This document shows, one piece after another, positions 1-29,180 of a stretch of 32,177 bases of DNA. This DNA comes from Akkermansia muciniphila (GTDB taxonomy: Bacteria > Verrucomicrobiota > Verrucomicrobiia > Limisphaerales > UBA9464): NCBI GenBank assembly GCA_945883815.1, contig CAMCYJ010000040.1:1-32177 (forward strand). The letters run 5' to 3'. Position 1 is the stretch's first letter. Each line of letters starts with the position of its first letter. The translations under genes were made by a program, and so were the position numbers. A model generated the notes under the pieces. The model was not told where the DNA came from and searched no databases. It saw nothing but the letters and a program-made list of their open reading frames with translations.

Positions 1-2696
1 AGCGCCTGAGCGATCCCGATGGGCGTGTGCGCATCAATGCCTTGATGGCCGCAGGTTCGCTGCCGGCCTCCCGCGCTCTGGCCGATGCCGTGGTGGCCGC
101 CTGGCCCAACCTCAAGGATCGCTGGCTGGAATCCGCGGCCGTGGGTGCCGCCGACAAGGATCCGCTGCTTTTCCTCGAGGCGTCCTTCGCCGCCAAGGAT
201 CCGGCCTTCCTCGCCAACTATGTGCCGCACGTGGCGCGTCTGGTGGCCAACCGTCGTGATGCAGCCTTGGCCGGTCGCATGGTGCAGTTGCTGGCGCGTC
301 AATCGGTCGCCACCGACGGCCTCAAGGCGGCCGCCCTCGAGGCATTGTCCGCCGCGCTCGACGCGCGCCTGCAACCGGAACTGGATGCCGCCAACCTCGG
401 CGCCCTGAAGTCGCTCCTGGCCTCGGGTCGGACGGCGGGTTCGGTGCTGCCGCTCGTGGCCCGTTGGAAGGCGGCCTCAGCCCTGTCGGCCGAACTCAAG
501 CCGGCCATTCAGGCCGCTTCGGCCCAGATCCGGGACGCCGCGTTGTCGGATGCTTCGCGCGGCCAGATCGCAGCCAACCTTATTGGTGTTCGCAATATTG
601 ATGCGTCGGTGATTCCGGCCGTCGCCGGCTTGGTCACTCCGAGCATTAGCCCGGCGTTGCAGAAGTCCTTGATCGAGGCGCTCGGTTCCGCCCCCGAAGG
701 CGGGATGGCCCTCGTCGAACGGTTCGCCCAATTGCCCACCGGCCAGTTGGAGACGGCCTTCGCCCAGGTGCTCAAGCGGGCCGACTCATCCGCCGCCTTC
801 ATCGAGGCGCTGGCCGCCCGCAAGATCGACGTGGTGCTGCTGGGCCCCGCCCGACTGCACCGCCTGCGCACCCACGGTGACGCGAAGATCGCCGTCCGCG
901 CCACCCAGGTCATCGATGACCTCAAGGGACCCGAGGCCAAGGAAAAGGACGCCCTCATTGCCAAGCTCCGTCCGGAAGTGGAGAAGCCGGGCGACGTGGC
1001 CAACGGCAAGAAGGTCTTCACCGCCAACTGCGCCGGCTGCCACATTTACAAGGGAGAGGGTCGCAACCTGGCCCCGAACCTCAACGGCATGGGCGCCCAC
1101 GGTGCGGCCGACTTGCTCATCCACATCGTCGACCCGAACCGCGTGGTCGAGCCCAACTTCATCAGCATTAGCATCGAGACCAAGTCGGGCGATCAGTTCG
1201 ATGGTGTCATCGATCGTGAGAATGCTTCTGAAGTCGTCCTGCGCGACGCGTCGTCCGATCACACGCTGCGCGTCTCCGACATCGCCAACCGCAAGTCCAC
1301 CGGTCGATCACTCATGCCCGAGGGCTTCGATGCGTTGGGAGCGGCCGCCCTGCGCGACCTGCTCGCTTACATGACGGTCGATGACAACCGCTTCCGCATC
1401 ATCGATTTGGGCGGGGCTTTCACGGCCAACAGCGGTCGTGGCCTCTACATCACGCCGGAGCAGGAAGACGACACCGTCAGCTTCCGCAGCTACGGCCTTA
1501 AGCGCGTCGAGGACATTCCCTTCGACGTGATCAGCCCGGAGAAGGCCGTCGCCAACGTGGTGGTGCTCAAGGGTGGCGCTTCAGACTCCTGGTCTCGCAA
1601 GAACCTGCCCAAGCGGGTTGAGGTGAAGGTCGGCGTGGCGGCCTCCAAGCTGCACATCCTGGGCGGCGTGGCGGGTTGGGGTTATCCCGCAGTGAGCGAG
1701 AAGATCAACGCCCTGAAGATCACAGCCGTCTTTGAAGGCGGCGCGACACAGGAGATCCTCCTGAAGAACGGCGTGGAAATCGCCGATTACCGCGGCCGGC
1801 CCGATTTGACCGGTTCCAAGGGATTGCCGAGCTGGACCAAGGGGCCCGGCCAAATTCGTTGGCTCTCCAAGAACATCACCAAGCCCGGCGTGATCCAGAA
1901 GCTGGTGCTCGAGAGCTACGACAACGAGGTGGCTCCGACTCTTTTCGCCATCACGGCCGAGCTGGGTGCGCCGGCCGGTCCGGAGCAGGCTCAGGCCGAG
2001 CCGGTCGCGGCTCCGTTGAAGTGGGGCACTGGCCTCAAGACATTGCTCATCGGCGGCGGTGCGTCGCACGACTACAACCGCTGGTTCAACCTGGCAGACG
2101 TGGCGATGCTCAATGCTTCCGGGCGCATCTCGGCCAATTACCGCGAACCCCAGGATGTCACGGTCGAGGCTGTGAAGTCCGCGGACATCTTGCTCATCAG
2201 CGCCAACAAGGCGTTTCCTGACGCGGCAGTGCGCGAGGCCATTGCCGCTCACGCCGTGGCCGGCAAGGGGTTGGTGCTGCTGCACCCGGGCCTGTGGTAC
2301 AACTGGGCCAATTGGCCCGCCTACAACCGCGAGCTGGCCGGCGGCGGTTCCCGCGGCCATGACGCGTACGGGGAGTTCGAGGTCACGGCCTCCGGAGTGA
2401 AGCATCCGCTGATGCAGGGCGTTCCTGAAAACTTCAAGCTCAGCGACGAGCTCTACTACTACGAGGCCGACCCGGCGGGAACGCCCATTCAGGTGCTCGC
2501 CACCGCCCACTCGAAGTCCAAGAACAAGGACTTCCCGCAGGTCTTCGTGGTCAACCATCCCAAGGCCCGCATCGCCGGCATCACGCTGGGTCACGATGGT
2601 ATTGCCCACGGGCATGCGGCCTACCAGCAGTTGCTCAAGAACGCGGTGCTGTGGACGGCCCACAAGGAGGCCTGGATCACGGCCAGCGCGAAGTAA
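1..2696 (+). CDS. HEAT-repeat / PVC-type cytochrome c / ThuA-domain protein (5' truncated)
   Basis: The reading frame is open from the left edge (codons begin at base 3), so the true start lies outside the window; a GTG at 27 is only the first possible internal start. Visible order, numbered from 27: an alanine-rich helical HEAT-like region (about 1-310); a PVC-type haem domain with the c-haem motif CAGCH at residues 335-339, followed by 'ILDP/IVDPNR'-like and 'SLMPEGFDAL' segments typical of the family (to about 455); a beta-sandwich-like middle (about 490-650); and a C-terminal ThuA/glutamine-amidotransferase-like fold (about 668-885) opening with 'LLIGGGASHDYNRWF'. Proteins of this kind in Verrucomicrobiota and Planctomycetota are exported and often carry an N-terminal dehydrogenase propeller; whether this one does cannot be seen. 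The role is probably periplasmic electron transfer linked to sugar or polyol oxidation (inference). A strong terminator follows. Confidence 0.85.
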   Translation, partial: RLSDPDGRVRINALMAAGSLPASRALADAVVAAWPNLKDRWLESAAVGAADKDPLLFLEASFAAKDPAFLANYVPHVARLVANRRDAALAGRMVQLLARQSVATDGLKAAALEALSAALDARLQPELDAANLGALKSLLASGRTAGSVLPLVARWKAASALSAELKPAIQAASAQIRDAALSDASRGQIAANLIGVRNIDASVIPAVAGLVTPSISPALQKSLIEALGSAPEGGMALVERFAQLPTGQLETAFAQVLKRADSSAAFIEALAARKIDVVLLGPARLHRLRTHGDAKIAVRATQVIDDLKGPEAKEKDALIAKLRPEVEKPGDVANGKKVFTANCAGCHIYKGEGRNLAPNLNGMGAHGAADLLIHIVDPNRVVEPNFISISIETKSGDQFDGVIDRENASEVVLRDASSDHTLRVSDIANRKSTGRSLMPEGFDALGAAALRDLLAYMTVDDNRFRIIDLGGAFTANSGRGLYITPEQEDDTVSFRSYGLKRVEDIPFDVISPEKAVANVVVLKGGASDSWSRKNLPKRVEVKVGVAASKLHILGGVAGWGYPAVSEKINALKITAVFEGGATQEILLKNGVEIADYRGRPDLTGSKGLPSWTKGPGQIRWLSKNITKPGVIQKLVLESYDNEVAPTLFAITAELGAPAGPEQAQAEPVAAPLKWGTGLKTLLIGGGASHDYNRWFNLADVAMLNASGRISANYREPQDVTVEAVKSADILLISANKAFPDAAVREAIAAHAVAGKGLVLLHPGLWYNWANWPAYNRELAGGGSRGHDAYGEFEVTASGVKHPLMQGVPENFKLSDELYYYEADPAGTPIQVLATAHSKSKNKDFPQVFVVNHPKARIAGITLGHDGIAHGHAAYQQLLKNAVLWTAHKEAWITASAK

Positions 2697-2825: not shown

Positions 2826-4637
2826 ATGGGGCCCTCGATGAACCACCGAATTCTTGCACCGAACGGTTGGAGAACCTTCTGGACCATGGTCCTGATCGGG
2901 TGGGCCATGGCTCTCCGAGCGGGGGCTGTCACTCTGGATTTGGAATTTCGGCCCACCTGGGATGCCAAACCTCTCGAGCTCGAGGCGCTCCGTCATGAGA
3001 CCGGTTCCGGCGAGTTGCTTTCGGTGACCCGCTTGAGTGCTCTGCTCTCGGGAGCCGCGCTGGAGACCACCGACGGAAAATGGGTGGAAGTGACTCCGGC
3101 CCATGCGTGGATCGATCTGGCTTCGGGTCGTTTGCGTTGGACCTTGAATCCGGTTCCGCCGGGCCAATACCGGGCGTTGCGATTTTGGATCGGGCCGGAC
3201 TCGGTCGAGAACCACGCCGATCCAGCCAAACGCTTACCCGACGATCCGCTGTCACCCGGACTCAATGGCCTGCATTGGGACTGGCAGGGCGGGTACATCT
3301 TCATGGCTCTGGAGGGGCGTTATCGCTCCGGCAACGGCCCCATCGGCGGCTACTCGCTGCATTTCGCCCGCGATCCCCGCCGCACCCGGGTGTCGCTCGC
3401 GGTGCCCTTGGATCTGACACGAAACAGGGCCCTTCGATTGGACTGGGATCTCGCATTGCTGTTCCGCTTGCCCCGACCTATCTCACTGGCGCGAGATGGT
3501 CATTCCACCCATTCGCGCGAGCAGGATTCATTGGCCGATGCATTGGGCCAAAACCTGCCCTTGTCGTTTCGGGCCGGGGCGTTGCTGGATAGATCCGGGG
3601 TGGCTGGGAAGGCGGTTCCCCCCGTCGTCCCCAAAGACCTGCCATCAAAGTACACGCCCCATCGATTCGCCATGGCGGGAACCTTTCCCATCCCGCCGCT
3701 CCCACGGGACAACCCATTGATCGAGGAGCGGATCAGTTTGGGTCGACGATTGTTCCAAGAGACAGCCTTGTCGGTCGATGGATCCCTGGCATGTGCCTCC
3801 TGCCACGCTGCGGCGACAGGCTTTTCAGACTCGCGTCGTTTCAGCTCGGGCGTCCGGGGACAGAGGGGAACCCGGCAGTCCATGGCTTTGGTAAATTTGG
3901 CCTGGAAGCGGGAGTTCTTCTGGGACGGTCGAGCCCGGTCGCTGCGGGATCAGGTATTGATGCCCATCCAGGACCCAACAGAGATGGCCGAGACCTTGGA
4001 GTCGGTGATCGGCAAGTTGTCCGGAATGCCGGAGTACCCGGTGCTGTTCGAAAACGCTTTTGGGACGCCGCGCATCGACGCCGAACGCATCGCGTTGGCC
4101 TTGGAACAATTTGTCCTGACCCTGACCCATTTCCGGTCCCGGTTCGATTTGTCGACTCAAGGAAAGGCGAGCCTCAGCGATCAGGAACGCCGCGGGTTGG
4201 AACTCTTCATGACCGAGAACGAACCGCGCATGGGCCAACGTGGGGCCGACTGCTTCCACTGCCACGGAGGACCGCTCTTCACCGATCACCAATTTCACGA
4301 CAACGGGTTGGATGAAAAGCCTTTGGATCCGGGGCGGGCCCGCGTCACGGGTCGAGATGCCGATCGGGGCAAGTTCGTGACGCCCACCTTGCGCAACATC
4401 GCCCAGACGGCTCCCTACATGCACGACGGACGGTTCCAGACCTTGGAAGCGGTGGTGCGGCATTACTCGGAGGGTGTTCAGGCTAGCCCCAATCTGGATC
4501 CCAATTTGGCCAAGCATGCGGCCGGAGGGCTCCATCTGAGCCCGGAAGACCAATCGGCGCTGGTGGCCTTCCTGAAAACCTTGAGCGATCCGGCTCCGGA
4601 GTCTTCACTGCCGAAACCGGAGCGGCCCAATCCCTGA
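2826..4637 (+). CDS. MbnP-like domain fused to MbnH/MauG-family di-haem cytochrome c peroxidase
   Basis: I place the start at ATG 2826, with GGTGGG just upstream; ATG 2838 is equally possible. Both give a signal peptide (hydrophobic stretch ending near 'ALRAGA'), so the protein is periplasmic. The N-terminal part (about 35-290) reads as an MbnP-family domain: 'LDLEF' opening, a 'GQYRALRFWIGPDSVENH' segment, then 'GLHWDWQGGYIFMALEG' with Trp151 and Trp153, followed by beta strands. The C-terminal part (about 290-600) is a MauG/cytochrome c peroxidase module with two haem-c motifs, CASCH (323-327) and CFHCH (476-480), and the family signatures 'FFWDGRARSLRDQ' and 'PTLRNIAQTAPYMHDGRF'. In known systems MbnH is a separate di-haem enzyme that converts a Trp of its partner MbnP to kynurenine, creating a copper site. 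Here both are one polypeptide. No methanobactin precursor or transporter gene is adjacent, so a general copper-handling role is inferred. Confidence 0.88.
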   Translation: MGPSMNHRILAPNGWRTFWTMVLIGWAMALRAGAVTLDLEFRPTWDAKPLELEALRHETGSGELLSVTRLSALLSGAALETTDGKWVEVTPAHAWIDLASGRLRWTLNPVPPGQYRALRFWIGPDSVENHADPAKRLPDDPLSPGLNGLHWDWQGGYIFMALEGRYRSGNGPIGGYSLHFARDPRRTRVSLAVPLDLTRNRALRLDWDLALLFRLPRPISLARDGHSTHSREQDSLADALGQNLPLSFRAGALLDRSGVAGKAVPPVVPKDLPSKYTPHRFAMAGTFPIPPLPRDNPLIEERISLGRRLFQETALSVDGSLACASCHAAATGFSDSRRFSSGVRGQRGTRQSMALVNLAWKREFFWDGRARSLRDQVLMPIQDPTEMAETLESVIGKLSGMPEYPVLFENAFGTPRIDAERIALALEQFVLTLTHFRSRFDLSTQGKASLSDQERRGLELFMTENEPRMGQRGADCFHCHGGPLFTDHQFHDNGLDEKPLDPGRARVTGRDADRGKFVTPTLRNIAQTAPYMHDGRFQTLEAVVRHYSEGVQASPNLDPNLAKHAAGGLHLSPEDQSALVAFLKTLSDPAPESSLPKPERPNP

Positions 4638-4707: not shown

Positions 4708-6099
4708 ATGACCACCCATCCACTCAAACTCACGACCCTTTCCCTCTGCCTTTGGGGCGCTTGGGTTCCGCTTCAGGCAGCCGCACCCGCGAATTGGCCC
4801 GCCTGGCGAGGTCCTTTGGCGAACGGCGTGGCTCCCGACGCGCACCCTCCAACCCAGTGGAGCGAAACCCAAAACGTGCAATGGAAGGTGGGCATTCCGG
4901 GGCGGGGGACCTCCACGCCGGTGATTTGGGAGGATCAGGTCTTTATTCTCACGGCGGTTCCGACTGGGCCTGAGGCGCCCGCAGAGGCTTCTGATTCCGG
5001 TGGTTCGCCGGCAGAGCGGCCCGATCGACCGGATCGTCCCCGTCGTGGGGGGGCTGGCGGTCACGGCGGGGGCGGTGGAGGCATGGTGGATCGGCCGACC
5101 CGAGCCCAGCAGTTCACGGTGCTCAGCTTTGATCGCAAGACGGGCAAGCAGCGTTGGAGCCATTCACCGCGCACCCAATTGCCGCACGAAGGCCATCACA
5201 AGGATCACGGCTTTGCCTCGGCCTCTCCGGTCACCGACGGCAAGCATCTCATCGTCTCGTTTGGGTCGTTTGGTCTCTACGGGTACGACCTCAAGGGCAA
5301 GCTCCTTTGGGAAAAGGACCTGGGCGATATGCGCACCCGCAACAGCTTCGGCGAGGGCAGTTCGCCGGCCCTGGATGGCAACACGGTGGTCGTGCTCTGG
5401 GACCATGAGGGTGACGACTTCATTGTGGCCCTCGACAAGCGGGATGGCCGCGAGTTGTGGCGGCAGACGCGCGATGAACCCACGGGTTGGTGCACTCCGT
5501 TGATCGTCAGTCACGGCGGTCGCAAACAAGTCATCGTCAACGGCACCAACAAGATCCGCAGCTACGATCTCAAGGATGGCAAACTGCTTTGGGAGTGCGC
5601 CGGGCAGACGGTCAATGCCATCCCTTCGGCGGTTTCCGCCGGGGATCGGGTGTTCTTGATGAGCGGTTACCGGGGCAATGCCCTGCAGGCCCTCCGACTG
5701 GACCGTTCCGGTGATCTCACCGGCACCGACGGCATTGTCTGGTCGCATGCCAAGAGCACACCTTACGTGCCATCGCCCCTGCTGGTGGGGAGCACCTTGT
5801 ACTTCATCTCCAACAACAGTGCCCTGCTCTCTGCCTTCGATGCTGGCTCGGGCAAGGCGCACTTCGAGGCGGAACGCCTGGACGGTCTCAATGGCGTGTA
5901 CGCCTCCCCGGTGGCCGCCGACGGTCGTGTCTACGTGGTGGGGCGCGACGGCAATACCGCTGTTCTCCGTCAAGGTGAGCGGTTGGAGGTGTTGTCCAAG
6001 AATCGTCTGGATGACGGATTCGACGCCTCGCCGGCGATTGTCGGCAAACAGCTCTTCCTACGCGGCCGCCAGAGCCTTTATTGCATCGCGGAGAAGTAG
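4708..6099 (+). CDS. Secreted PQQ-binding-like beta-propeller repeat protein
   Basis: A 463-residue protein with an N-terminal signal peptide (about 1-25, ending 'PLQAAA') followed by 'NWPAWRGPLANGV', the usual opening of verrucomicrobial and planctomycete PQQ-like propellers. Repeated blade motifs of the type 'LLWEKDLGD', 'GRELWRQ' and 'GKLLWECAG' run to the C terminus, as in BamB or quinoprotein dehydrogenase propellers. No quinoprotein catalytic domain or haem motif is visible, so cofactor binding is unproven. An odd low-complexity insert rich in Pro, Asp, Arg and then Gly (about residues 88-131) interrupts the first blades. It starts 70 bases after the MbnP-MbnH fusion gene on the same strand with no obvious terminator between, so cotranscription is possible. 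It is most likely a periplasmic scaffold or binding protein; its substrate is unknown. Confidence 0.85.
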   Translation: MTTHPLKLTTLSLCLWGAWVPLQAAAPANWPAWRGPLANGVAPDAHPPTQWSETQNVQWKVGIPGRGTSTPVIWEDQVFILTAVPTGPEAPAEASDSGGSPAERPDRPDRPRRGGAGGHGGGGGGMVDRPTRAQQFTVLSFDRKTGKQRWSHSPRTQLPHEGHHKDHGFASASPVTDGKHLIVSFGSFGLYGYDLKGKLLWEKDLGDMRTRNSFGEGSSPALDGNTVVVLWDHEGDDFIVALDKRDGRELWRQTRDEPTGWCTPLIVSHGGRKQVIVNGTNKIRSYDLKDGKLLWECAGQTVNAIPSAVSAGDRVFLMSGYRGNALQALRLDRSGDLTGTDGIVWSHAKSTPYVPSPLLVGSTLYFISNNSALLSAFDAGSGKAHFEAERLDGLNGVYASPVAADGRVYVVGRDGNTAVLRQGERLEVLSKNRLDDGFDASPAIVGKQLFLRGRQSLYCIAEK

Positions 6100-10950: not shown

Positions 10951-12738
10951 ATGAATGACCGGTCCAGCAAATCCATGAAAACCTACGCCAAATCGAATCG
11001 TTGGTTCCCTATGGTCGCCAATGGCCGGTCCTTATTCCGATCGGGCTTTTTGCCGGTGCTGGTATGGTTTTTGATGGCCGCTGGATTTGACCGTCCGGTG
11101 ACTGCCGCTGATCCAGCCTCGCCGCGCAGAGGTCTTGTCGCGACCGCGAATCCGGTGGCCACCGAGGCGGGGTTGCAGGCCTTGCGTGACGGGGGCAATG
11201 CGGTCGATGCGGCCATCGCCTGTGCCCTGACCCTTGGTGTTGTTGACGGGCACAACTCGGGCCTCGGAGGCGGATGCTTCATGACCGTGCGCTTGGCCGA
11301 CGGACGGCTCATCACCTTGGACGGACGCGAGATGGCCCCGGCCGCAGCGACGCGGGACATGTTCGTGCACGAGGGCAAGGTTGATTCCCGACTCAGCCAA
11401 GATGGTGCCTTGTCGGTGGGCATTCCCGGTGAGTTCGCCACGCTCGCCTACGCCAGCACCAACTATGGGCGTCTGCCGTTGGGCCGACTTCTCGAGGCCG
11501 CGGCTCGGGTCGCCGAGAAGGGTTTCCGGCTCGATCGCCATTAAGTTGGACGACTGAAGGAGACGCGGTCGCTGTTGGCGTTGTTTCCCGAGAGCGAGGC
11601 CATCTTTCTGAAGGGTCTGCCGTCGGTGCCATCGGCGGGCGATCGCTTGCGCCAATCCGATCTGGCCCGGTCGTACCGGCAGATGGCCAAGGGTGGGGTG
11701 GCTTGGTTTTACCAAGGTGACTTTGCCCGCCGCACGGCTGAGTGGATGAAGGCCCACGGAGGTGTGGTCACCGCCGCCGACTTCGACCGCTACGAGGTGG
11801 TGCCGCGCGAGCCGGTCCGGGGCACCTATCGAGGCTACGAAATCGTGAGCTTCCCGCCGCCTAGCTCGGGCGGTGTTCATGTCGTGGAGATCCTCAACAT
11901 CCTCGAACGCTTCGATCTCGCCGCGATGGGTGATGATTCCGCCGAATTTGCCCATGTCGTGGCCGAGGCGATGAAGTTGGCCTTCGCCGATCGCGCCCGC
12001 TGGCTGGGCGATCCCGACTTCGCGCGCGTGCCCCGAGGATTGGTGTCCAAGGAGTACGCGGCCGAATTGGCGCGACGGATTCGTCTCGACCGGGCTTCGG
12101 TCGTCGCGTCAGCGGGCACTCCGCCCGAGACTGACCGTGACTGGTTCACCCGCGAGCGGAACCGGCACACCACGCACTTTTCCACCGCCGACACCGAGGG
12201 CAATTGGGTGGCCTGCACCGCGTCGCTCAACACGAGCTTCGGCAGCAAGGTGGTGGTGCCGGGCACGGGCCTCTTGCTCAACAACCACATGGATGATTTT
12301 TCGGCACAGCCTGGTGTGCCCAATTATTTCGGCTTGGTGGGTGCCGAAGCCAATGCCATCGAGGCGCGCAAGCGGCCGCTCTCGAGCATGAGCCCGACAC
12401 TGGTGCTCCGAGATGGCCAGCCGATCCTCAGCGTGGGCGCAGCCGGCGGGCCGACCATCATTTCGCAAACCCTCCTGGCTATCCTGCGGGTCATTGATTT
12501 CAAGAAATCGCCCCGCGAAGCCCTGGCCGCCCCGCGCCTTCATCACCAGTGGAAGCCCGACGAACTCCATCTGGAACGCGCCTGGGGTGAAGCCGTCATC
12601 GCCGAGTTGCGTCGCCGGGGGCACACGGTTGCGGTCGATGCCTCGCTGGGTGCCGCTCAGGCGGTGGGCCGTGACGCCCAAGGGCAATGGTCCGCCGCGG
12701 CCGATCCTCGGGGCGAGGGGGCTGCTGGGGTGTGGTAG
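10951..12738 (+). pseudogene. ggt: Gamma-glutamyltransferase interrupted by one in-frame stop
   Basis: A single frame runs from ATG 10951 to TAG 12738 except for TAA at 11542-11544, just after 'EKGFRLDRH'; homologous sequence resumes directly ('LKETRSLLALFPESEAIF'), so no frameshift is involved. The 5' part has a signal peptide and the family opening 'RGLVATANPVATEAGLQALRDGGNAVDAA'. The 3' part holds the autoprocessing and catalytic Thr (codon 12169, in 'RHTTHFSTADTEGN'), the 'PPPSSGG' motif, and 'LLNNHMDDF'. The intact enzyme would be periplasmic, cleaving the gamma-glutamyl bond of glutathione and related peptides after self-cleavage into two subunits. The 3' fragment alone (first usable start about 11575) lacks the export signal and much of the large subunit. 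Either the gene is newly inactivated or the stop is a sequencing error; the rest of the gene looks undecayed. Confidence 0.88.
11542..11544 (+). other. In-frame TAA breaking the ggt gene
   Basis: This is the only stop in the 1788-bp ggt frame. Codons on both sides fit the family without a gap or frame change, so one substitution (for example from CAA, GAA, AAA, TAC or TAT) accounts for it. Confidence 0.85.
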
Positions 12739-12864
12739 GTCGGAGTGGTCTGGCGGGGCGTTGATGTCGGGCGGCGGTGCCCGAGAAGTCTTTCTGTCAA
12801 AAGACCGAGCAGTTCGGATTGATCGACCCGGCCTCGGGAATCCGACGATCGACGACCTCGGGCC

Positions 12865-13590
12865 TTATCGATCCATCACTCTGCGGATGGCCCGAGCCAG
12901 TGCCACGGCGCCGGGTGTGTCGCCATGCAGGCACAGCGTCTGGGCGGGCACGGCGACCCACGATCCCTCGAGACTCTTCCATCCGCCGGTCTGCTGCCAT
13001 TCGCGCAGGCGCTCGGTGATTTCTCGGGAGCGGGTTAACAGCGCCCCGTCTTGATTTCGGGGCACGAGTTGGCCGTTCGCGCAGTAAGCCCGGTCGATGA
13101 ATCCCTCGGCCCAGGCGGCAACTCCGACCTCGCGGGCCAGCGTCAGTATCAGGCCTCCGGCGCGGGCGTAGATTTTCACCTTGGGAAACCATCGGGTCAC
13201 CGCCTCGACATAGGCCCGGCCGAGGGCTTTGTCGTTCTCCACGGCATGGTAGAGCGCGCCGTGCAGCTTGATGTGGTGCAACTGACTACCATGCCGCCGA
13301 GCCAAGAGATCCAGAGCGCCGACCTGTTGCAGCACGAAGGTCTGGAGTTGACCGGGCGACAGTGTCACTTCGCCCCGTCCGAAGGCGCCGGGCACTCCGG
13401 GATGAGCCCCCAGCCGCACCCCGAGCGCCTTCGCCTCCACCACCACCCGCTCCATGGTCAGCGCATCTCCGGCATGCCCGCCACAGGCCACATTCGCCGA
13501 GGTGATTTGCCGCAATAGCGCCCGCGTCCGCGCCCAAGGTTCCCCCTCGCCCAGGTCGCAATTCAAATCCCAGCCGGACGTCGATCGCAT
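12865..13590 (-). CDS. pxpA: 5-oxoprolinase subunit PxpA (LamB/YcsF family)
   Basis: PxpA works with PxpB and PxpC in ATP-dependent hydrolysis of 5-oxoproline (pyroglutamate) to glutamate in the cytoplasm. The 241-residue length is normal. Family signatures are present in slightly altered form: 'DLNCDLGEGE' (usually DLNADLGE), 'SANVACGGHAGD' (usually SANIACGFHAGD), 'LGAHPGVPGAFGRG' (usually an HPSYPD type), and 'IKLHGALYH' (usually KPHGALY). ATG 13590 gives the N terminus directly before 'DLNCDLGE'. Its partner subunits are encoded as a fusion at 20055-21779, 6.5 kb away on the same strand. The broken ggt gene lies convergently beside it; together they would form a glutathione/gamma-glutamyl salvage route. 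The VapBC-like pair lies upstream in the same direction. Confidence 0.9.
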   Translation of the reverse strand: MRSTSGWDLNCDLGEGEPWARTRALLRQITSANVACGGHAGDALTMERVVVEAKALGVRLGAHPGVPGAFGRGEVTLSPGQLQTFVLQQVGALDLLARRHGSQLHHIKLHGALYHAVENDKALGRAYVEAVTRWFPKVKIYARAGGLILTLAREVGVAAWAEGFIDRAYCANGQLVPRNQDGALLTRSREITERLREWQQTGGWKSLEGSWVAVPAQTLCLHGDTPGAVALARAIRRVMDR

Positions 13591-13657
13591 GGTCCGATGG
13601 AAGCAGAGAAGGGGGACTCGGGCGACTCCGTGGCTCGGGATATTGCGGCCGACGCGG

Positions 13658-14101
13658 TCAGGTTGATCCCTCGGAGATCAACGGGTTCTGCCACACCAAT
13701 CCGGGAAAACGCGCGAAGTCGCTGTCGTTGGTGAACAGCGTCGCCCGGTGTTCGATAGCGTAGGCGGCCAGGATGGCGTCGGAGAGGACCGGGCCCGCCG
13801 CCATGGCTGCGGTCATCAACTCCATAACTCGGTTGAAGTGCAGTGCACCGGGGACGAGGGTCCGCACCTGAGGCAAATCCATCCAACCTTCCACCACTTG
13901 TCGCGCATCGATCAAAGGCACTCGGGCTGCACCGAGTCTGGGATTGGTTGCGATGCGTACGAAGCCGAAGGCGATCTCCAGCGGTATCCCGATCAGTTCG
14001 TCTCCGTTCATCGCCTGTTCCCACCAACGACGGGCCGCCCCATGTTGCGGCGTGTGTGGGTTGTAGGCGTAAAGCAGCAAGTTGAGATCGGGGAGGATCA
14101 C
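13658..14101 (-). CDS. vapC: VapC-type PIN-domain ribonuclease toxin
   Basis: A 147-residue PIN domain, probably an RNase that inhibits translation when not bound by its antitoxin. The acidic metal-binding set is visible: Asp5 ('LPDLNLLLYA'), Glu42 ('PLEIAFGFVR'), Asp108 ('LSDAILAAYA') and Asp126 ('TNDSDFARF'), as expected for an active enzyme. The 'DLNLLLYAYN...H' opening with 'RIATNPR' resembles the PIN subgroup often annotated as TA-system VapC. The start overlaps the antitoxin stop (ATGA), typical of TA operons. It lies just upstream of pxpA in the same direction, with a 67-bp gap and no evident link in function. The RNA target cannot be predicted. Confidence 0.9.
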   Translation of the reverse strand: MILPDLNLLLYAYNPHTPQHGAARRWWEQAMNGDELIGIPLEIAFGFVRIATNPRLGAARVPLIDARQVVEGWMDLPQVRTLVPGALHFNRVMELMTAAMAAGPVLSDAILAAYAIEHRATLFTNDSDFARFPGLVWQNPLISEGST

Positions 14102-14346
14102 GACCCGAGTTCGAGGATTGTGTCTTCATCCTCCCATTCGGCCGCGAGCCGGTTGAAGCTCTGCCGAGTGAGTTCCGGGGGGAAGGGAGCCGAAAAGAGG
14201 GGTTGAAGTTGGACCCCGCTCGGTCGGCGTCCTAAGGCACGCTTGATCGCCTGATTCAACACCACCTTGAAGGACAGCCCGGTTCGCTCGACCTCCTGTC
14301 GGAGCAGTGCCTCCGTATCGGCATCGATCGTGATCGTTGTCCTCAT
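14098..14346 (-). CDS. Ribbon-helix-helix antitoxin of the VapBC pair
   Basis: An 82-residue protein starting 'MRTTITIDADTEALLRQEVERTGLSFKVVLNQAIKRAL', a ribbon-helix-helix DNA-binding fold: beta strand 'TTITID', then two helices. The acidic C-terminal tail ('LAAEWEDEDTILEL') would wrap and neutralise the toxin. I prefer the ATG at 14346 to the longer start at 14373, because the beta strand then begins the protein and the palindrome at 14359-14379 falls just upstream as an operator. It overlaps the toxin start by 4 bases. The protein likely represses its own operon, as is usual for this family. Confidence 0.87.
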   Translation of the reverse strand: MRTTITIDADTEALLRQEVERTGLSFKVVLNQAIKRALGRRPSGVQLQPLFSAPFPPELTRQSFNRLAAEWEDEDTILELGS

Positions 14347-14358
14347 AGTTAGCACTGT

Positions 14359-14379
14359 GACAGCAGAGTTCATGCTGTC
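14359..14379 (-). promoter_or_regulatory. Operator-like inverted repeat upstream of the antitoxin
   Basis: A perfect 7-bp inverted repeat (GACAGCA ... TGCTGTC) with a 7-nt spacer lies 13 to 33 bases before the preferred antitoxin start. Two half-sites in this position suit a ribbon-helix-helix autorepressor. A TTGACA hexamer overlaps one arm, but no good -10 at standard spacing was found, so the promoter itself is unassigned. Confidence 0.55.
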
Positions 14380-14735
14380 AAGATAGCAAAGTCTGCCCCC
14401 CCCTCTCGATCGGCAGATCGGTTTCCCCGGACGCCCGTGATACCTGGGGCTGACGGATTCGGCGGTTTTCTGGCCGAAAAGCGGACTGTGAGTAGCGGAT
14501 GCCTTTCATTCGATGGACGAATTCGATCGATGGCGGAGCTTCCCCGAGGATCGACGGGGCACGATGGCGACGGATCTGATGTATCGTCCCGACGATGAAA
14601 TCACGATGACCTTCGAACCGTTGGTCTGGCTTGATCGGTGGCATCGATGTGTGGGGATTTGCTTTTTCAACGTCACTCGAACAGATTTGTGATGAACTCA
14701 GTTCGGGAATCTTTCCCTGACATGTTTCTGCTCTC
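14380..14735. other. Intergenic region without a convincing gene
   Basis: This divergent spacer of about 356 bp holds a run of eight C at 14396-14403. A minus-strand frame of 152 codons crosses it and the start of the next gene, but it has no recognisable motif. Presumably it contains promoters for both flanking units; none could be placed with confidence. Confidence 0.5.
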
Positions 14736-16475
14736 ATGCGACAGCTCATTACCCGCCTCGGCTGCCTTTGGCTGTGCCTGGCTCCAATTCTGATCGAAGC
14801 CTCCCAATGGATCAGCGCGCAGCGTGCGGGCGACATCGCCTACGTGTTGCTCGATTCCCCGCCCGAGATACGACGCTATGACCTATCGACTGGGCAGTGG
14901 CTCCCCGCGCTTTCCCTGAGGGACCACCCGACGTCGATGCTCGCCGAGACCAACGCGCTGCACATCGCGTTTGGGACCAGTGTTTATCGCTACGCCCCGG
15001 ATCTCACCGCGGAGACGCACCTGCTGAATACCGGATCGCCCACGACGGCGATTCTCTCATGGACCAATCATGTGTACCTTGTGCATCCAGCCCATCCCTA
15101 TGCTTATATCACGTCGTTGCGCCGGTCGGATGGCACCGTGGTGACCGAGGGAAAGTTCTCCTACGTTGCGTTTGGAGGCGCGAGTGTCTCCAGCGTGCTG
15201 GGCCGCATTTACGGCCGATCACCGTTGGACATAAATACCGTGGTGCTGAACACCGACGGAACCTTCGGCGCAGTCAACGATAGCCCGTATCATCACGATT
15301 ATTCGGGTGGAGAGCCGACGTTCGTGCTTGGAGATGGGCGCCGGGTGACCGACAGCTCGGGCATCGTGTATGAAGGGGACACACTCCGGTTCGCAAACAG
15401 CTTCGATGGTCGTATCGATGCCATGGATTTCTATGGAGGCAGCACTCCAATCGTGTTGCGGGACACGAATGTCATCGCCTTTTCTCAGATTTATCTGCCT
15501 ACCGGTTCCGCCCCTGCGGGGGTGGTCGCTCCCAAGGCGCTGTTTGTTCGTGGTACGCAGATCACGGTGTTCGGCATCAACGGTTCAGAGATTACGGTCT
15601 GCAATCTGGCGGTTGCCGATCTCAAGGCCGAGGAGCCGGAGCCGGGCAAGCCTGTGGATCCGCGAGGCCTCGCCTATACACCAGACACGATCCTGAGGGA
15701 TCGTGCGGGGGATCTAATTCTTTACAACCGGTCCCAACGGAGTCTGTTTCGCTGGTCAGTTTCGAATCGAGGATACGCGCCCACGGTGCCACTCGTCGGC
15801 GCTCCAGCCCAAGTCGCCTACTCTGCGCAATTCCACCGGGTGTTTCTCGGGTTTGCGTCCGGGAAGATCGACAAGCTCGATCTCGGTGGGGCCGCGAAAC
15901 AGGTGCCGCTCATCAATACCGGTGCCGCGATCCTCGGCATGACCGCAGCCGATCCGTGTCTGTTCACCTGCGTGGCGATTTCACCTGGGGTATCTCATCA
16001 AACCTACGATGAGAACGGGGTCTTGATCACCTCGCGTCCCTGGAGCTACTTCTCGTCGGAGTTCATTTGGAGTGCGGTCAATCGACGCGTCTATTACTTC
16101 AACAACCACAACCCCCCCAACGACCTCCACTCGGCAGAGATTGACCTGAACGGCGGGCTCGGGACGCAGTCGGAAAGATCCTACCACTACATAGTGCAGG
16201 CGGTGCACCCGATCCGCGTCAGCCCCGATGCCCGAGCGGTGCTGTTGGGATCTGGGGAATTCTATGAGGGGACCGCGCTCACTAACGCGGGAAGCCTTCC
16301 GGTCCAAATCGTCGATGCCGCGTGGACCGGGCAGAACTTGTATACTATTCGCGTCGTGGCAGGGGTGACCGTGCTGCAGCAGTGGAATTCAAACAACTAT
16401 TCCCAGGCGGCATACCGGCAACTTTCGGGGGCGCCCCTGCGGGTGTTGCCGGGGCCGATGGGGTCACTGTGGTGA
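14736..16475 (+). CDS. Giant secreted repeat protein, 5' portion (frameshifted; first propeller-like module)
   Basis: A signal peptide ('LITRLGCLWLCLAPILIEAS') is followed by a module of about 550 residues with beta-propeller-like character: repeated short strands, 'RRYDLSTGQWLPALSLRDHPTSML', 'SPYHHDYSGGEPTFVLGDGRRV', 'SSGIVYEGDTL', 'PNDLHSAEIDLNGGLG'. The same landmarks recur in the same order in the downstream fragment, so this is copy one of an internal duplication. The frame ends artificially at TGA 16473-16475, after 'RVLPGPMGSLW', while the matching sequence continues in the -1 frame. With one base restored, the full gene (14736-20005) would encode about 1756 residues. I do not recognise a specific function; a cell-surface or secreted structural or binding protein is likely. 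Left unrepaired, this fragment would lack all downstream domains. Confidence 0.8.
   Translation: MRQLITRLGCLWLCLAPILIEASQWISAQRAGDIAYVLLDSPPEIRRYDLSTGQWLPALSLRDHPTSMLAETNALHIAFGTSVYRYAPDLTAETHLLNTGSPTTAILSWTNHVYLVHPAHPYAYITSLRRSDGTVVTEGKFSYVAFGGASVSSVLGRIYGRSPLDINTVVLNTDGTFGAVNDSPYHHDYSGGEPTFVLGDGRRVTDSSGIVYEGDTLRFANSFDGRIDAMDFYGGSTPIVLRDTNVIAFSQIYLPTGSAPAGVVAPKALFVRGTQITVFGINGSEITVCNLAVADLKAEEPEPGKPVDPRGLAYTPDTILRDRAGDLILYNRSQRSLFRWSVSNRGYAPTVPLVGAPAQVAYSAQFHRVFLGFASGKIDKLDLGGAAKQVPLINTGAAILGMTAADPCLFTCVAISPGVSHQTYDENGVLITSRPWSYFSSEFIWSAVNRRVYYFNNHNPPNDLHSAEIDLNGGLGTQSERSYHYIVQAVHPIRVSPDARAVLLGSGEFYEGTALTNAGSLPVQIVDAAWTGQNLYTIRVVAGVTVLQQWNSNNYSQAAYRQLSGAPLRVLPGPMGSLW
16460..16475 (+). other. 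Frameshift site (one base missing, or a -1 shift)
   Basis: A run of four G (16460-16463) lies 9 bases before the premature TGA. Adding one G gives 'RVLPGPMGVTVVTLQDSAPR', which aligns without gaps over 25 residues to 'RLFPLKGSFLLLTMESAQPR' and what follows in the second module. A canonical X XXY YYZ slippery heptamer is not present, so deletion or sequencing error is favoured over programmed frameshifting. Confidence 0.85.
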
Positions 16476-19400
16476 CGCTCCAGGATTCCGCGCCACGCTT
16501 TCATCTGCTCGATCAGTCGCTGACGCCGGTGTTTTCCTCCCCGGTCCGCCCATCGGTTCCCGGTTCGCTGACGGCGGTACGAGTCGGTGCGGAAACTGTC
16601 ACGCTTTCGTGGACGGATCTCCTAGACAATGACGACACCTACGAGGTGGAGCAGCAGCTCCCAGACGCGGTGGGATGGAAGCGTTTGACCAGCCTTGCCG
16701 CCGGCACCGTCCGCTACGAGGTCACCGGCCTGGCCTTCTCGAGCACCAATGCCTTCAGGGTTCGCGCGGTCAACGCCTCGGGAGATTCGGCATACGCGGG
16801 TCCCCTGGTGGTGGTCACTCTGCCGGATCCGCGCAACCCCATGCCGGCGATCGGCCCACAGATCGTGGAGGCGCTCGCCACGAGGGTGGAGATCGGCTGG
16901 GAGGATGCCTCGTCGAATGAGGATGGATTTCGCATCGAGCGACGTGACCTCGGCGATACGGGTTCCTGGAAGATTGCCGGAACCGTTCCAACCGACAGCA
17001 CGCGGTTTGTCGATGCCGGCGTTGGTGCAGGTCGTCGCTACGAATACCGGGTGGTGGCCTTCAACGCCTTTTCCGCCGCACCTCCGACGGCGTCGTTGAC
17101 GGTCACAACGCTCGACCTGGATACCGGGCCCCCGAGCGGAAAATTCACCGGGTTGAACGTGGTCGATGCGGCCCCGTGGGCGGTGGTCTTGAAGTGGGGT
17201 GCCACGTTTCAGAACGAGACCGGATTCGAACTGGAGCGCTCCGATTATCCGGCTGGCGCCTGGATTTCGGTGGGGGCCACCAGCCGGAATGTCTCGCAGT
17301 TCACCGATACCAACGCGGTCCCGGGGGTTCGCTACCGATATCGCGTGTCTGCATTCAACCCTTTCGGCCGCCAGAGAGATTCGTTGACCGTGGACGTCAC
17401 TCCGCGTGCCGTCGGCGGTGAATTCCTCGGTCTTTCGGGCCGCTCTGGATCCGTCCTCTGTTTCGCCGTTGCCAACCCCTTCCGGATCGAGCGGTACGAT
17501 GCCGCAACTAGGGCCTGGCTGGCCTTCATTCCGCTGTCCGAGCGTCCCACCGCGCTCCATTGCCAGACGGATTCTTTGTACGTGGCCTACGATCGAAAGG
17601 TGGTTCGACTGGATCCCGGCACGCTCGTCGAGACATTCATGGTCAACGCGCCGAGCTCCGTGGTGGTGCTGTTCGCCGCCGGCGACCTGCTCTACGTCGT
17701 TGAACGTGGCAATGGAACGCTGTGGCTTGACCGCCGGACCGGCGCGCTCGGTGGCCAGGGCTCACTGGGTTTCTATTCGGTCTTCCCCGGAGTGGATGTT
17801 GCGCCGGATGGAAAAACCCTGTTCGCCGTGACCAGCGGGATTATCCCTGCCGATATTCTGAAGATCGATCTCGCGCCGACCGGTGGAATCGCCGCGAGCA
17901 ATGGTAGCCCTTATCACGGGGCGTATTCCATCGGCTCATGGGCGGCGGTGCTGCCCGGAGGCCGGCGCGTAATGACCTCCAGCGGCATCGTCTACAACAC
18001 CACCGATCTCACTTATGCAGGGTCGCTGGCCGGTGCGGTGGATGCCGTGGCCTTCACCACGAACGGACTTCCCATCGTGGCGCGCGGAACCAAGGTGATT
18101 GCGTACACCGCCAGTTTCCTCGAAGCGGGGGAGAAAACGTTGGGGGCGACACCGTTGCTTCTCGCGGTTGACGGTGCCGACCTGCTCACCGCCCAACCCA
18201 GCGCCACGTCGCTCCATGGGGTGGACGTACAGTCGATGGCTCTGGACACCATCCTCCCACCAGCGGCGCATGAGGCTCCGAGCCTAGAGGGAGTTGCGTT
18301 TAAACCGGCCAACGCGTTTGTGGCCGCGGATGGCGACACCCTCGTGCTGGTGTGTCGAGAATTGTCGGTGCTGTTCCGGTGGTCTATTTCGCGGCGACGC
18401 GAACTGCCCGGCATTCCGCTCTTGGGGTCGCCCAGCTGGACCGCCTATTCCGCGGGCAACAACCGCGTCTACACCGGTTACGAAAATGGGCGTATTCTCA
18501 GCGTTCCGCTGGTCGACGGGGCGACGGAAGTGCCCTTCGCCAACCTGCCGGGTTTCACCCGAGGGCTGGCGTGTGCGGGCGATTGGGTGTTCGCCGCAGA
18601 CACCTCCGGCGCTTGGGCGACTCATTACGTGTTCAATTCCGAAGGCACGCTGATTTCCTCGCGGGACTGGAACCGCATTTCCCGCGCCTACACGTGGGAT
18701 CCCAAAGATCGGAAGATGTATTTCTTCCGCGACAGTCAAAGTCCCAACGACCTTCACTGGGAGGCCATTGATGCGGATGGAAAGCTGGGGCTGGCCGGGC
18801 AGACGCCATACCACGGTGAGGTCAAAGTGGAGGCCCCGATTCTGGTGAAGCCGGATTCCTCGGTGGTTCTGATCGGATCCGGTCAGATGTTCTCTATTCC
18901 GTCGCTCAATTTCGCATCGGTGCTTCCCTATGCGATCACCGATGGCGACTGGCGCGATGGCACGCTGTACACGGTTCGGGATGTCAGTGGGCTTTCCCAG
19001 GTCCAGCGCTGGTCGGCGAACTATGCACCGCTGGATGTGAAGCAGATCGAGGGACGACCGCTCCGCTTGTTCCCGCTCAAGGGTTCGTTCCTGCTGCTCA
19101 CGATGGAAAGTGCACAGCCCCGCATGACGCTGCTGGACGATAGCCTCGTGGTGACGTTTCAGTCGGCGATCAATCATCCGCCAACCGATCTGCGCGTGGA
19201 GCCGGGGATCCTTGGGGAAAACGCTCCGGCAGGGACGGTTGTGGGACGTCTTCTGGTGACCGATCCCGACGTGGGGGACACGGCCCGGTTCTCTTTGAAC
19301 GAACCGGTCACGCCCGCGAGCGCCTTCCGCATTGAGGGCGACCAATTGCTCACCACCCGTCCGCTCGATTTCGAGCTGTTGTCCGCATGGGGCGTGAGTG

Positions 19401-20005
19401 TTCGTGCGCTGGATCGATTTGGCATGTCGGTGACCCAGTCGCTCACCATCACCTTGACCAACGTCAATGAAGCTCCGATCGGAATCATTCTTTCGAACCC
19501 GGTGATCCGAGAGGAGGCACCCATCGGGACGCTGGTTGGATTGCTGTCCGCGAATGATCCGGATCGCGGAGACCGGCAGGCCTTCAGCTTCGTGGAGAAT
19601 CCTGAAAAACTGTTCCGGATCGTCGGAAATCGCCTCGAAGTGGCAGCGGCGCTGGCATTCAGAACGAATGCCTCGCCATTGGTCCGCGTCCAGGCGCGGG
19701 ACGCCGGCGGTCTGGCGGTGGAGGCGTCTTTTTCCGTCACGGTGATTCCCACACCGGTGCTCACCTTCAGCACGCGCCTCGTCGAGGAAGGGGTAGATCG
19801 GATCCTTTGGAGCGATGTCGTTCAACCCAAGCTGGACTTCAACATGCGCTACGAGGCTGACAGTTCCACGGACCTGATCACATGGAAGCCCCTGCTGATC
19901 CCGCCTCAGGTCATCAGCACGGGGGTGCAGTCGCAGACGGTTCGCTACCTCCTGCCAGCAGGCGGAGTGCAGTGTTATCTCCGGATCCGCATCCTCGCGC
20001 CCTGA
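16460..20005 (+). CDS. Giant secreted repeat protein, 3' portion (FnIII, second propeller-like module, cadherin-like repeats)
   Basis: This is the continuation of the gene beginning at 14736; the frame is open from 16322, but homology to the duplicated module begins at the frameshift. Domain order by position: three fibronectin type III domains (about 16549-16827, 16828-17112, 17128-17406, each with 'YRVxAFN/VRAVNASG'-type strands); the second propeller-like module (17410-19165), homologous to the upstream fragment; two cadherin-like repeats (19171-19476 and 19477-19750; 'ENAPAGTVVGRLLVTDPDVGD', 'DFELLSAWGVSVRALDRFG', 'NVNEAP'); and a C-terminal segment with 'SSTDLITWKPL' ending 'YLRIRILAP', of a kind common at the ends of verrucomicrobial exported proteins. 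No catalytic motif is seen. Adhesion or carbohydrate/surface binding is inferred from the domain types. Confidence 0.82.
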   Translation, partial: GVTVVTLQDSAPRFHLLDQSLTPVFSSPVRPSVPGSLTAVRVGAETVTLSWTDLLDNDDTYEVEQQLPDAVGWKRLTSLAAGTVRYEVTGLAFSSTNAFRVRAVNASGDSAYAGPLVVVTLPDPRNPMPAIGPQIVEALATRVEIGWEDASSNEDGFRIERRDLGDTGSWKIAGTVPTDSTRFVDAGVGAGRRYEYRVVAFNAFSAAPPTASLTVTTLDLDTGPPSGKFTGLNVVDAAPWAVVLKWGATFQNETGFELERSDYPAGAWISVGATSRNVSQFTDTNAVPGVRYRYRVSAFNPFGRQRDSLTVDVTPRAVGGEFLGLSGRSGSVLCFAVANPFRIERYDAATRAWLAFIPLSERPTALHCQTDSLYVAYDRKVVRLDPGTLVETFMVNAPSSVVVLFAAGDLLYVVERGNGTLWLDRRTGALGGQGSLGFYSVFPGVDVAPDGKTLFAVTSGIIPADILKIDLAPTGGIAASNGSPYHGAYSIGSWAAVLPGGRRVMTSSGIVYNTTDLTYAGSLAGAVDAVAFTTNGLPIVARGTKVIAYTASFLEAGEKTLGATPLLLAVDGADLLTAQPSATSLHGVDVQSMALDTILPPAAHEAPSLEGVAFKPANAFVAADGDTLVLVCRELSVLFRWSISRRRELPGIPLLGSPSWTAYSAGNNRVYTGYENGRILSVPLVDGATEVPFANLPGFTRGLACAGDWVFAADTSGAWATHYVFNSEGTLISSRDWNRISRAYTWDPKDRKMYFFRDSQSPNDLHWEAIDADGKLGLAGQTPYHGEVKVEAPILVKPDSSVVLIGSGQMFSIPSLNFASVLPYAITDGDWRDGTLYTVRDVSGLSQVQRWSANYAPLDVKQIEGRPLRLFPLKGSFLLLTMESAQPRMTLLDDSLVVTFQSAINHPPTDLRVEPGILGENAPAGTVVGRLLVTDPDVGDTARFSLNEPVTPASAFRIEGDQLLTTRPLDFELLSAWGVSVRALDRFGMSVTQSLTITLTNVNEAPIGIILSNPVIREEAPIGTLVGLLSANDPDRGDRQAFSFVENPEKLFRIVGNRLEVAAALAFRTNASPLVRVQARDAGGLAVEASFSVTVIPTPVLTFSTRLVEEGVDRILWSDVVQPKLDFNMRYEADSSTDLITWKPLLIPPQVISTGVQSQTVRYLLPAGGVQCYLRIRILAP

Positions 20006-20054
20006 TTCTTGGTGAAAGCCAGGGGTGGATCTTCCGGTCGGCTCAGCCAGTTGC

Positions 20055-21779: not shown

Positions 21780-22030
21780 TTCCACCGCTTTGGACTCCCA
21801 GCCCCGGCTGCGTCGAGTGTTTTGTTCGGTTCTGGCACAGATCCGCCCCAGATCCGATACCGTCGGTGGGGTTGGAGGATTGTTTCGATGGTCTGTGCCC
21901 AAGGGGGACAGGCTCCCCGTGACGCGCCGGGAGTGGATTTCGGACCGGGTTTCGAGCTTGTCTGGGATCGCGGGCTGGAGAACGGTCACTCCTCCCCGTG
22001 ATTCTTCGAATCCCCACGCCTATGCTCGTT

Positions 22031-29084: not shown

Positions 29085-29180
29085 TCCCGATTTCCGATTG
29101 CGGAGTCAGGTCGCGTGTGTCCGCGTCGGGATTGGATGCGCGGGATTGAATGCGGTGCGCCGGATGGGCATCGTCGCCCC

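Follow-up and report, generated by a model that had tools for sequence, protein, structure and literature searches.

An MbnP domain joined in one chain to a MauG/MbnH-like di-haem domain in Verrucomicrobiota, with a predicted kynurenine-dependent copper site

The window (the whole stretch of 32,177 nucleotides that was analysed) carries on its forward strand, at positions 2826-4637, an open frame of 603 amino acids that encodes an MbnP domain and a MauG/MbnH-like di-haem domain in a single chain. A sequence-only reading of this DNA had already discerned in this one frame a signal peptide, an MbnP-like domain and a di-haem module, and the Pfam profiles bear this out: PF20243 (MbnP) matches residues 36-224 with 87.3 bits (E 1.5e-24, against a gathering cut-off of 27), and PF03150 (CCP_MauG) has its best stretch at residues 301-448 with 172.5 bits. 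Both haem motifs, as well as Trp151 and Trp153, lie where that reading had placed them. The features of the locus are the following, with residues numbered in the 603-residue frame:

27..2696, + strand: upstream neighbour with cytochrome c and ThuA domains (Pfam), not counted as part of the system
2838..4637, + strand: fused MbnP/di-haem gene (Pfam, NCBIfam), with a first ATG at 2826 and a second at 2838
2838..2927, + strand: signal peptide, residues 5-34, ending ...ALRAGA (read by eye)
2928..3581, + strand: MbnP domain, residues 35-252 (Pfam; structure model; 7l6g fold match)
3273..3284, + strand: HWDW, with His150, Trp151 (predicted kynurenine) and Trp153 (117-row alignment)
3360..3362, + strand: His179, common to all six standalone MbnPs compared (alignments)
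3507..3515, + strand: Thr228-His229-Ser230, a motif not seen in the six standalone MbnPs; all fused rows have its His and Ser (alignments)
3582..3689, + strand: linker with a TPY..F...FP.P.LP.DNPL-like stretch, frequent among relatives (alignment)
3690..4613, + strand: MauG/MbnH-like di-haem domain (Pfam, NCBIfam, PDB sequence and fold comparison)
3792..3806, + strand: first haem motif CASCH, residues 323-327 (read from the sequence)
4251..4265, + strand: second haem motif CFHCH, residues 476-480 (read from the sequence)
4464..4466, + strand: Tyr547, at the position of a Tyr in MbnH and MauG and of a Met in two di-haem peroxidases (alignments)
4708..6099, + strand: downstream neighbour, a PQQ-type beta-propeller protein (Pfam), not counted as part of the system

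The second ATG is more likely to be the start than the first, since the relative L016 has a Met only at that position. The mature fused protein probably begins at Val35, a cleavage point read by eye.

By its profile and by the fold predicted for it, the N-terminal domain is an MbnP domain. The predicted structure of residues 35-256 (222 mature residues) had a pLDDT of 95.3 and a pTM of 0.91, and a search of the PDB with this model drew in six chains of 7l6g, the MbnP of Methylosinus trichosporium, as the only matches below E 0.001 (E 1.1e-8 to 1.4e-7, TM-score 0.65-0.67 by query, 15% identity). The best of these had a TM-score of 0.66 by query and 0.52 by target with an rmsd of 6.0, and the next different PDB entry followed at E 0.064; CorA and MopE were absent among the 50 listed of the 767 structural matches of this domain. 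The NCBIfam model TIGR04052 (MbnP_like_WxW) gave a weak score of 22.9 bits with the fused protein, below its cut-off of 140; among standalone MbnPs, that of Methylocystis parvus scored 290.9 bits and two from Deinococcus 85.2 and 78.6 bits. The sequence-only reading was to fall if the N-terminal domain had no MbnP-family match; such a match is seen in the PF20243 profile, in the 7l6g fold, and in an invariant Trp151 and three invariant histidines.

The C-terminal domain had been read as an MbnH/MauG-type enzyme, and the broader part of this assignment stood. TIGR04039 (MbnH) was its top NCBIfam model (residues 293-589), with a score of 217.5 bits that lies under the cut-off of 362.85, while the MbnH of M. 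parvus reaches 493.7 bits; the cut-off of the NCBIfam MauG model was likewise not reached. Given these Pfam and NCBIfam scores in relation to the TIGR04052 and TIGR04039 cut-offs, both domains belong to known superfamilies and neither to the narrow equivalog. In a tree of 20 rows, nine chosen fused domains formed one branch (93/94), which adjoined a long-branched Photobacterium protein and stood apart from the four MbnHs and two Deinococcus enzymes; the four MbnHs formed a clade (97/97) that excluded the nine, with the deep order unresolved. With the five ungrouped rows left out, every one of the 200 bootstrap trees grouped the nine together. Thus, judged by sequence, the fused enzyme domain is MauG/MbnH-like and falls outside both the narrow MbnH equivalog and the clade of four MbnHs. 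The genome contains a second match to the MbnH model, below the cut-off with 172.8 bits, on contig C113, which has no MbnP match.

Comparison with proteins of known structure led to a near-tie between MbnH and peroxidases. By sequence, MbnH 6e1c scored 144.4 bits and the Nitrosomonas peroxidase 1iqc 144.1 bits. A joint AlphaFold model of both domains, built from an alignment of 69 rows (the window together with 68 whole-frame loci out of 73, five being omitted), had a mean pLDDT of 88.5 and a pTM of 0.86, the other four models having a pLDDT of 74.1 to 82.6. In a PDB fold search with this model the best E-value was that of MbnH 6e1c (4.1e-21), followed by 3o5c (2.2e-20), 1iqc (5.2e-20) and then MauG, and the TM-score over the target was slightly higher for the peroxidases 3o5c and 1iqc (0.79-0.80) than for 6e1c (0.74). 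Tyr547 aligns with the Tyr of MbnH, in a position occupied by Met in the peroxidases 1iqc and 3o5c that is presumably that of a haem ligand. A Tyr is also present here in MauG and in both Deinococcus enzymes, and is absent from a Turneriella peroxidase; since it further occurs in proteins of Hymenobacter, Novosphingobium and Photobacterium, which as far as examined do not come from MbnP pairs, it marks a group wider than MauG and MbnH. The fused protein might on this account be a copper-responsive scavenger of H2O2, that is, a cytochrome c peroxidase of the di-haem type whose N-terminal domain binds metal, as the PF03150 match, the comparable alignment of peroxidases and MbnH by sequence and TM-score, and the Tyr of standalone peroxidase-like proteins would allow. 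We consider this unlikely, in that every row reaching the site has Tyr and not the Met of 1iqc and 3o5c, the CytoC_perox model of NCBIfam gave 14.4 bits against 217.5 for the MbnH model, and the enzyme is constantly attached to an MbnP domain with an invariant Trp151.

The joined form is widespread among related bacteria. PF20243 was found once in the window's own genome. Of 50 genomes of its family, 30 carry it, and of 387 sampled from its phylum, Verrucomicrobiota, 22 do (both tallies include the own genome). Among the 56 loci that these searches yielded (L001 being the window gene, L046 and L055 one and the same gene, and the match G029:C126 being given no locus), 52 had both domains in one frame; these include L010, L026 and L046/L055, in which the C-terminal domain runs on in a different frame, as well as L021 and L030, which reach the edge of a contig. 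Of the remaining four, L024 lies at a contig end, L007 and L008 have the domains split between two frames, and L051 is interrupted. Scanning GTDB contigs for a motif gave 242 confirmed relatives. Of the best 80, whose titles are of Verrucomicrobiota type apart from one titled only 'bacterium', 75 combined the MbnP domain and the two haem motifs in a single frame, and five ran off the contig; this set is biased on the motif, since the scan demanded HWxW[QS]GGY[IV]. As the fused architecture was found again in both surveys, it is beyond chance, and we could rule out a read-through or artefact of assembly as its origin. The comparison of fused with separate forms, which the sequence-only reading had proposed for PVC genomes, covered the window's phylum together with plasmid records, and the latter yielded six separate pairs. 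L007 and L008 were not accepted as true split pairs, the second motif of L008 being CFHCY. Genome G170 (L051/L149) was discarded as a keeper of an unfused ancestor, the gene being interrupted by transposase-like frames. At this locus (L149, 5731-9546) the broken fused gene still has its YHYH neighbour upstream.

Residue conservation was counted over 117 aligned rows, from which only identical strings were removed and in which L008 was not included; the rows are not independent, as the window gene enters twice, once as the window and once as L001, and there is overlap between the two collections. Trp151, His150, His179 and His229 are kept in all 117, and they are also kept in 52/52 of the Pfam-selected rows, in which the motif was not presupposed and the window gene is counted twice. 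The Cys and His residues of the first haem motif are present in 117/117 rows, those of the second in all 112 that reach it, and Tyr547 in all 109 that extend to its site. The distances in the MbnP domain and in the enzyme domain were correlated (Pearson 0.83 over 111 rows), as is to be expected of domains that are inherited together. Two tryptophans had been put forward as candidates for modification. Trp151, which aligns with what we take to be the Trp converted to kynurenine in MbnP, emerged strengthened from the alignment, whereas Trp153 (116/117 rows) is the weaker candidate because L050 has a Pro in its place while retaining Trp151, and we disfavoured it as the main target.

In the plasmid records we noted six two-gene systems of an MbnP and a di-haem enzyme. 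The PLSDB label of the enzyme is 'methanobactin export MATE transporter MbnM' in three of the six; we read these enzymes as MbnH, an identity that the MbnH model score supports for M. parvus. In Deinococcus radiodurans 55 nt separate the mbnP gene from a cytochrome-c peroxidase gene, after which come a hypothetical gene, copC and copD; in D. grandis mbnP and the enzyme gene are separated by two genes, one hypothetical and one for copper resistance. These Deinococcus pairs (L137, L138) have the same two domains as the fused protein and in the same order, mbnP preceding the enzyme gene, but as two genes, which are adjacent to each other in D. radiodurans only, with copper genes beside them. Their MbnPs differ from the fused form in that they have Met at -2 of the Trp and lack a His at -1. 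When four fused MbnPs were aligned with six standalone ones, both Trp residues and His179 proved common to all ten. Five of the six standalone MbnPs have Met at -2 (Leu in Trichormus), and none has a His at -1. Both Deinococcus MbnPs carry a His three positions beyond the place of His229, which may thus have a counterpart there.

In the 2021 MbnP paper the copper, as Cu(I), is reportedly surrounded by His, Met, solvent and kynurenine. Relative to a copper site of the M. trichosporium type, the fused rows keep His179 and have at -2, the place of a Met whose ligand role is only presumed, Leu in 114/117 and Met in 3/117. The fused form shares with MbnP/MbnH (7l6g; 6e1c) the MbnP fold, the WxW motif, the Tyr in the di-haem enzyme and the conserved His of an HLG/HLA motif; it differs in being one chain rather than two, in the invariant His right before the Trp, in the largely replaced Met, in the invariant HS of THS, in its scores under both equivalog cut-offs, and in having no methanobactin gene noticed beside it. 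MauG, which likewise has a Tyr at the ligand position, is a di-haem enzyme that oxidises a tryptophan of a separate protein of a different fold, methylamine dehydrogenase, to a cross-linked quinone with oxidising equivalents from H2O2. CorA binds Cu(I) through two His residues, a water and Kyn, and its gene is co-transcribed with that of a di-haem protein (PMC3912023). The methanotroph systems CorA/CorB and MopE/SACCP would thus resemble the fused protein in a kynurenine-containing Cu(I) site with two His, which on the fused side is predicted, and in a partner di-haem protein, but they consist of separate proteins (PMC3912023). It is plausible that the fused copper site is nearer to the CorA kind than to the MbnP kind. 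The literature searched, consulted in part and lying outside the primary MbnH (2019) and MbnP (2021) papers, held no mention of an MbnP/di-haem fusion; the words 'fusion' and 'fused' are absent from the main text of PMC3621798, and 'fused' from that of PMC3912023.

Given the observed architecture, the family assignments and the invariance of Trp151, the histidines and the haem motifs, we lean towards a single-chain version of MbnP/MbnH that itself converts Trp151 to kynurenine and then binds copper, a course of events that we regard as fairly probable. In this scheme, the fused chain would be exported and receive two c-type haems. The di-haem domain, when given oxidising equivalents, would oxidise to kynurenine the Trp151 of its own MbnP domain or that of a sister chain, and the kynurenine region together with the invariant histidines (His179, with His150 and/or His229) would complete a site of Cu(I) type. 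The oxidation, its occurrence in cis and the binding of copper are what we infer from MbnP/MbnH, CorA and MauG. In favour of this explanation we counted the profile and fold matches, the invariant Trp151 and Tyr547, the recurrence of the fusion, the pTM of the joint model, the copper genes of Deinococcus and the CorA site. Against it we counted the missed MbnH and MauG cut-offs, the exclusion from the MbnH clade, the near-tie with peroxidases and their better TM-score, the occurrence of the Tyr in a wider group, the loss of the -2 Met, the lack of a recognised copper gene among the eight window frames scanned and of a CopC match in the genome, and the spread of pLDDT among the joint models. 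The invariance of His150, His179 and His229 and the mostly lost Met could also be accommodated if the enzyme had formerly modified the MbnP domain and the fused family now bound copper or another metal through the three histidines alone, without kynurenine. We hold this to be very unlikely, as the aligned rows show no departure from Trp151, Tyr547 or the two haem motifs, so that the enzyme seems to be under selection. If kynurenine does form at Trp151, copper sites of this type would reach beyond the copper handling of methanotrophs to a widespread phylum, here with no methanobactin gene noticed beside the gene. The fixed 1:1 linkage of enzyme and substrate would moreover make a difficult protein-protein oxidation testable with one construct, including whether a chain uses its own or its neighbour's Trp.

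Methanobactin genes were not noticed in the listed open reading frames of the window (one list holding frames of at least 220 aa) or in the eight frames scanned with Pfam, a scope that excludes short mbnA-like genes; this agrees with the sequence-only reading, which had seen none adjacent. Likewise, no copper gene was recognised among those eight frames, and a search of the genome for CopC at E 0.001 gave nothing. The PQQ-type beta-propeller gene lies next door in 6/69 loci, the window included. A homologue of the YHYH family (PF14240) is found in the flank of 37 of the 69 loci; in 36 it lies at 350 nt or less from the fused gene, and 32 have it directly upstream in the same orientation. Of the 69 loci, 62 have 1 kb or more of upstream sequence. 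A looser first clustering gave 42 loci for this neighbour, but it merges unrelated proteins; of five of its members scanned with Pfam, four were YHYH proteins and one a sulfatase. Examples beside fused genes (PF14240) are:

L113:3156-4928: YHYH gene
L067:6688-7920: YHYH gene

In the phylum sample PF14240 is present in all 22 MbnP genomes as against 26 of the 365 without MbnP (Fisher p 7e-23, kinship uncorrected; one of these 48 YHYH genomes is below the family cut-off and some matches are partial), and the two genes are within 6 kb of each other in 16 of the 22. In the family sample it is present in 27/30 MbnP genomes versus 7/20 others, within 5 kb in 16/30, and the three MbnP genomes with no match are incomplete. 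The window genome has its YHYH gene on another contig than the fused gene, as do close relatives such as G019, G027, G032 and G034, and G028 gave no YHYH match. This co-occurrence of YHYH genes with the MbnP fusion is new here. The YHYH proteins retain Trp178, His196, His203, His205 and Trp244 (L113 numbering) in 34/34 aligned rows, and the protein is a candidate metal protein; no function for the family was found in the portions of the literature consulted.

The co-occurrence of these genes, their closeness in 36 of 69 loci and the invariant Trp and His residues of the YHYH proteins raise the alternative that the di-haem domain acts on another protein, especially the neighbouring YHYH protein, with the MbnP domain serving as a docking or copper-delivery module. 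This appears improbable to us: it leaves the invariance of Trp151 unexplained, the YHYH gene of the window genome is on a different contig, and the three incomplete family genomes with MbnP show none. One may also conceive, though rather doubtfully, of a three-part copper system in Verrucomicrobiota, in which a self-maturing fusion, with its Met/His site rebuilt as a His-rich and kynurenine-dependent one, works together with a YHYH protein that is exported and serves either as its copper partner or as a second protein on which the di-haem domain acts. If this is so, the YHYH family gains a strong genomic partner.

Some further neighbours were noted around the fused genes. With the looser clustering, response regulators lie near nine loci and kinases near six, and the one two-component pair that was scanned (L126) was best matched by heavy-metal models, below both cut-offs. 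In eight of the 69 loci (L117, L121, L122, L123, L124, L127, L128 and L136) a large gene of one cluster lies 37-67 nt downstream of the fused gene; its only scanned member, that of L122, is of GSDH type, a glucose/sorbosone dehydrogenase.

Elsewhere in the window, a gamma-glutamyltranspeptidase gene (10951-12738, + strand) is cut by one in-frame TAA at 11542-11544, its two parts matching positions 2-121 and 128-512 of the PF01019 profile, and could be a pseudogene or an assembly error. It lies in one region (10951-21989) with genes for LamB/YcsF (PxpA-type) and a fused carboxyltransferase (PxpB/PxpC-type), and an OPT oligopeptide transporter is encoded at 29115-31169, a set that we take to look like the use of glutathione or 5-oxoproline. 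Between these, at 25392-29084, lies the gene of a large FG-GAP/UnbV_ASPIC repeat protein of 1230 aa.
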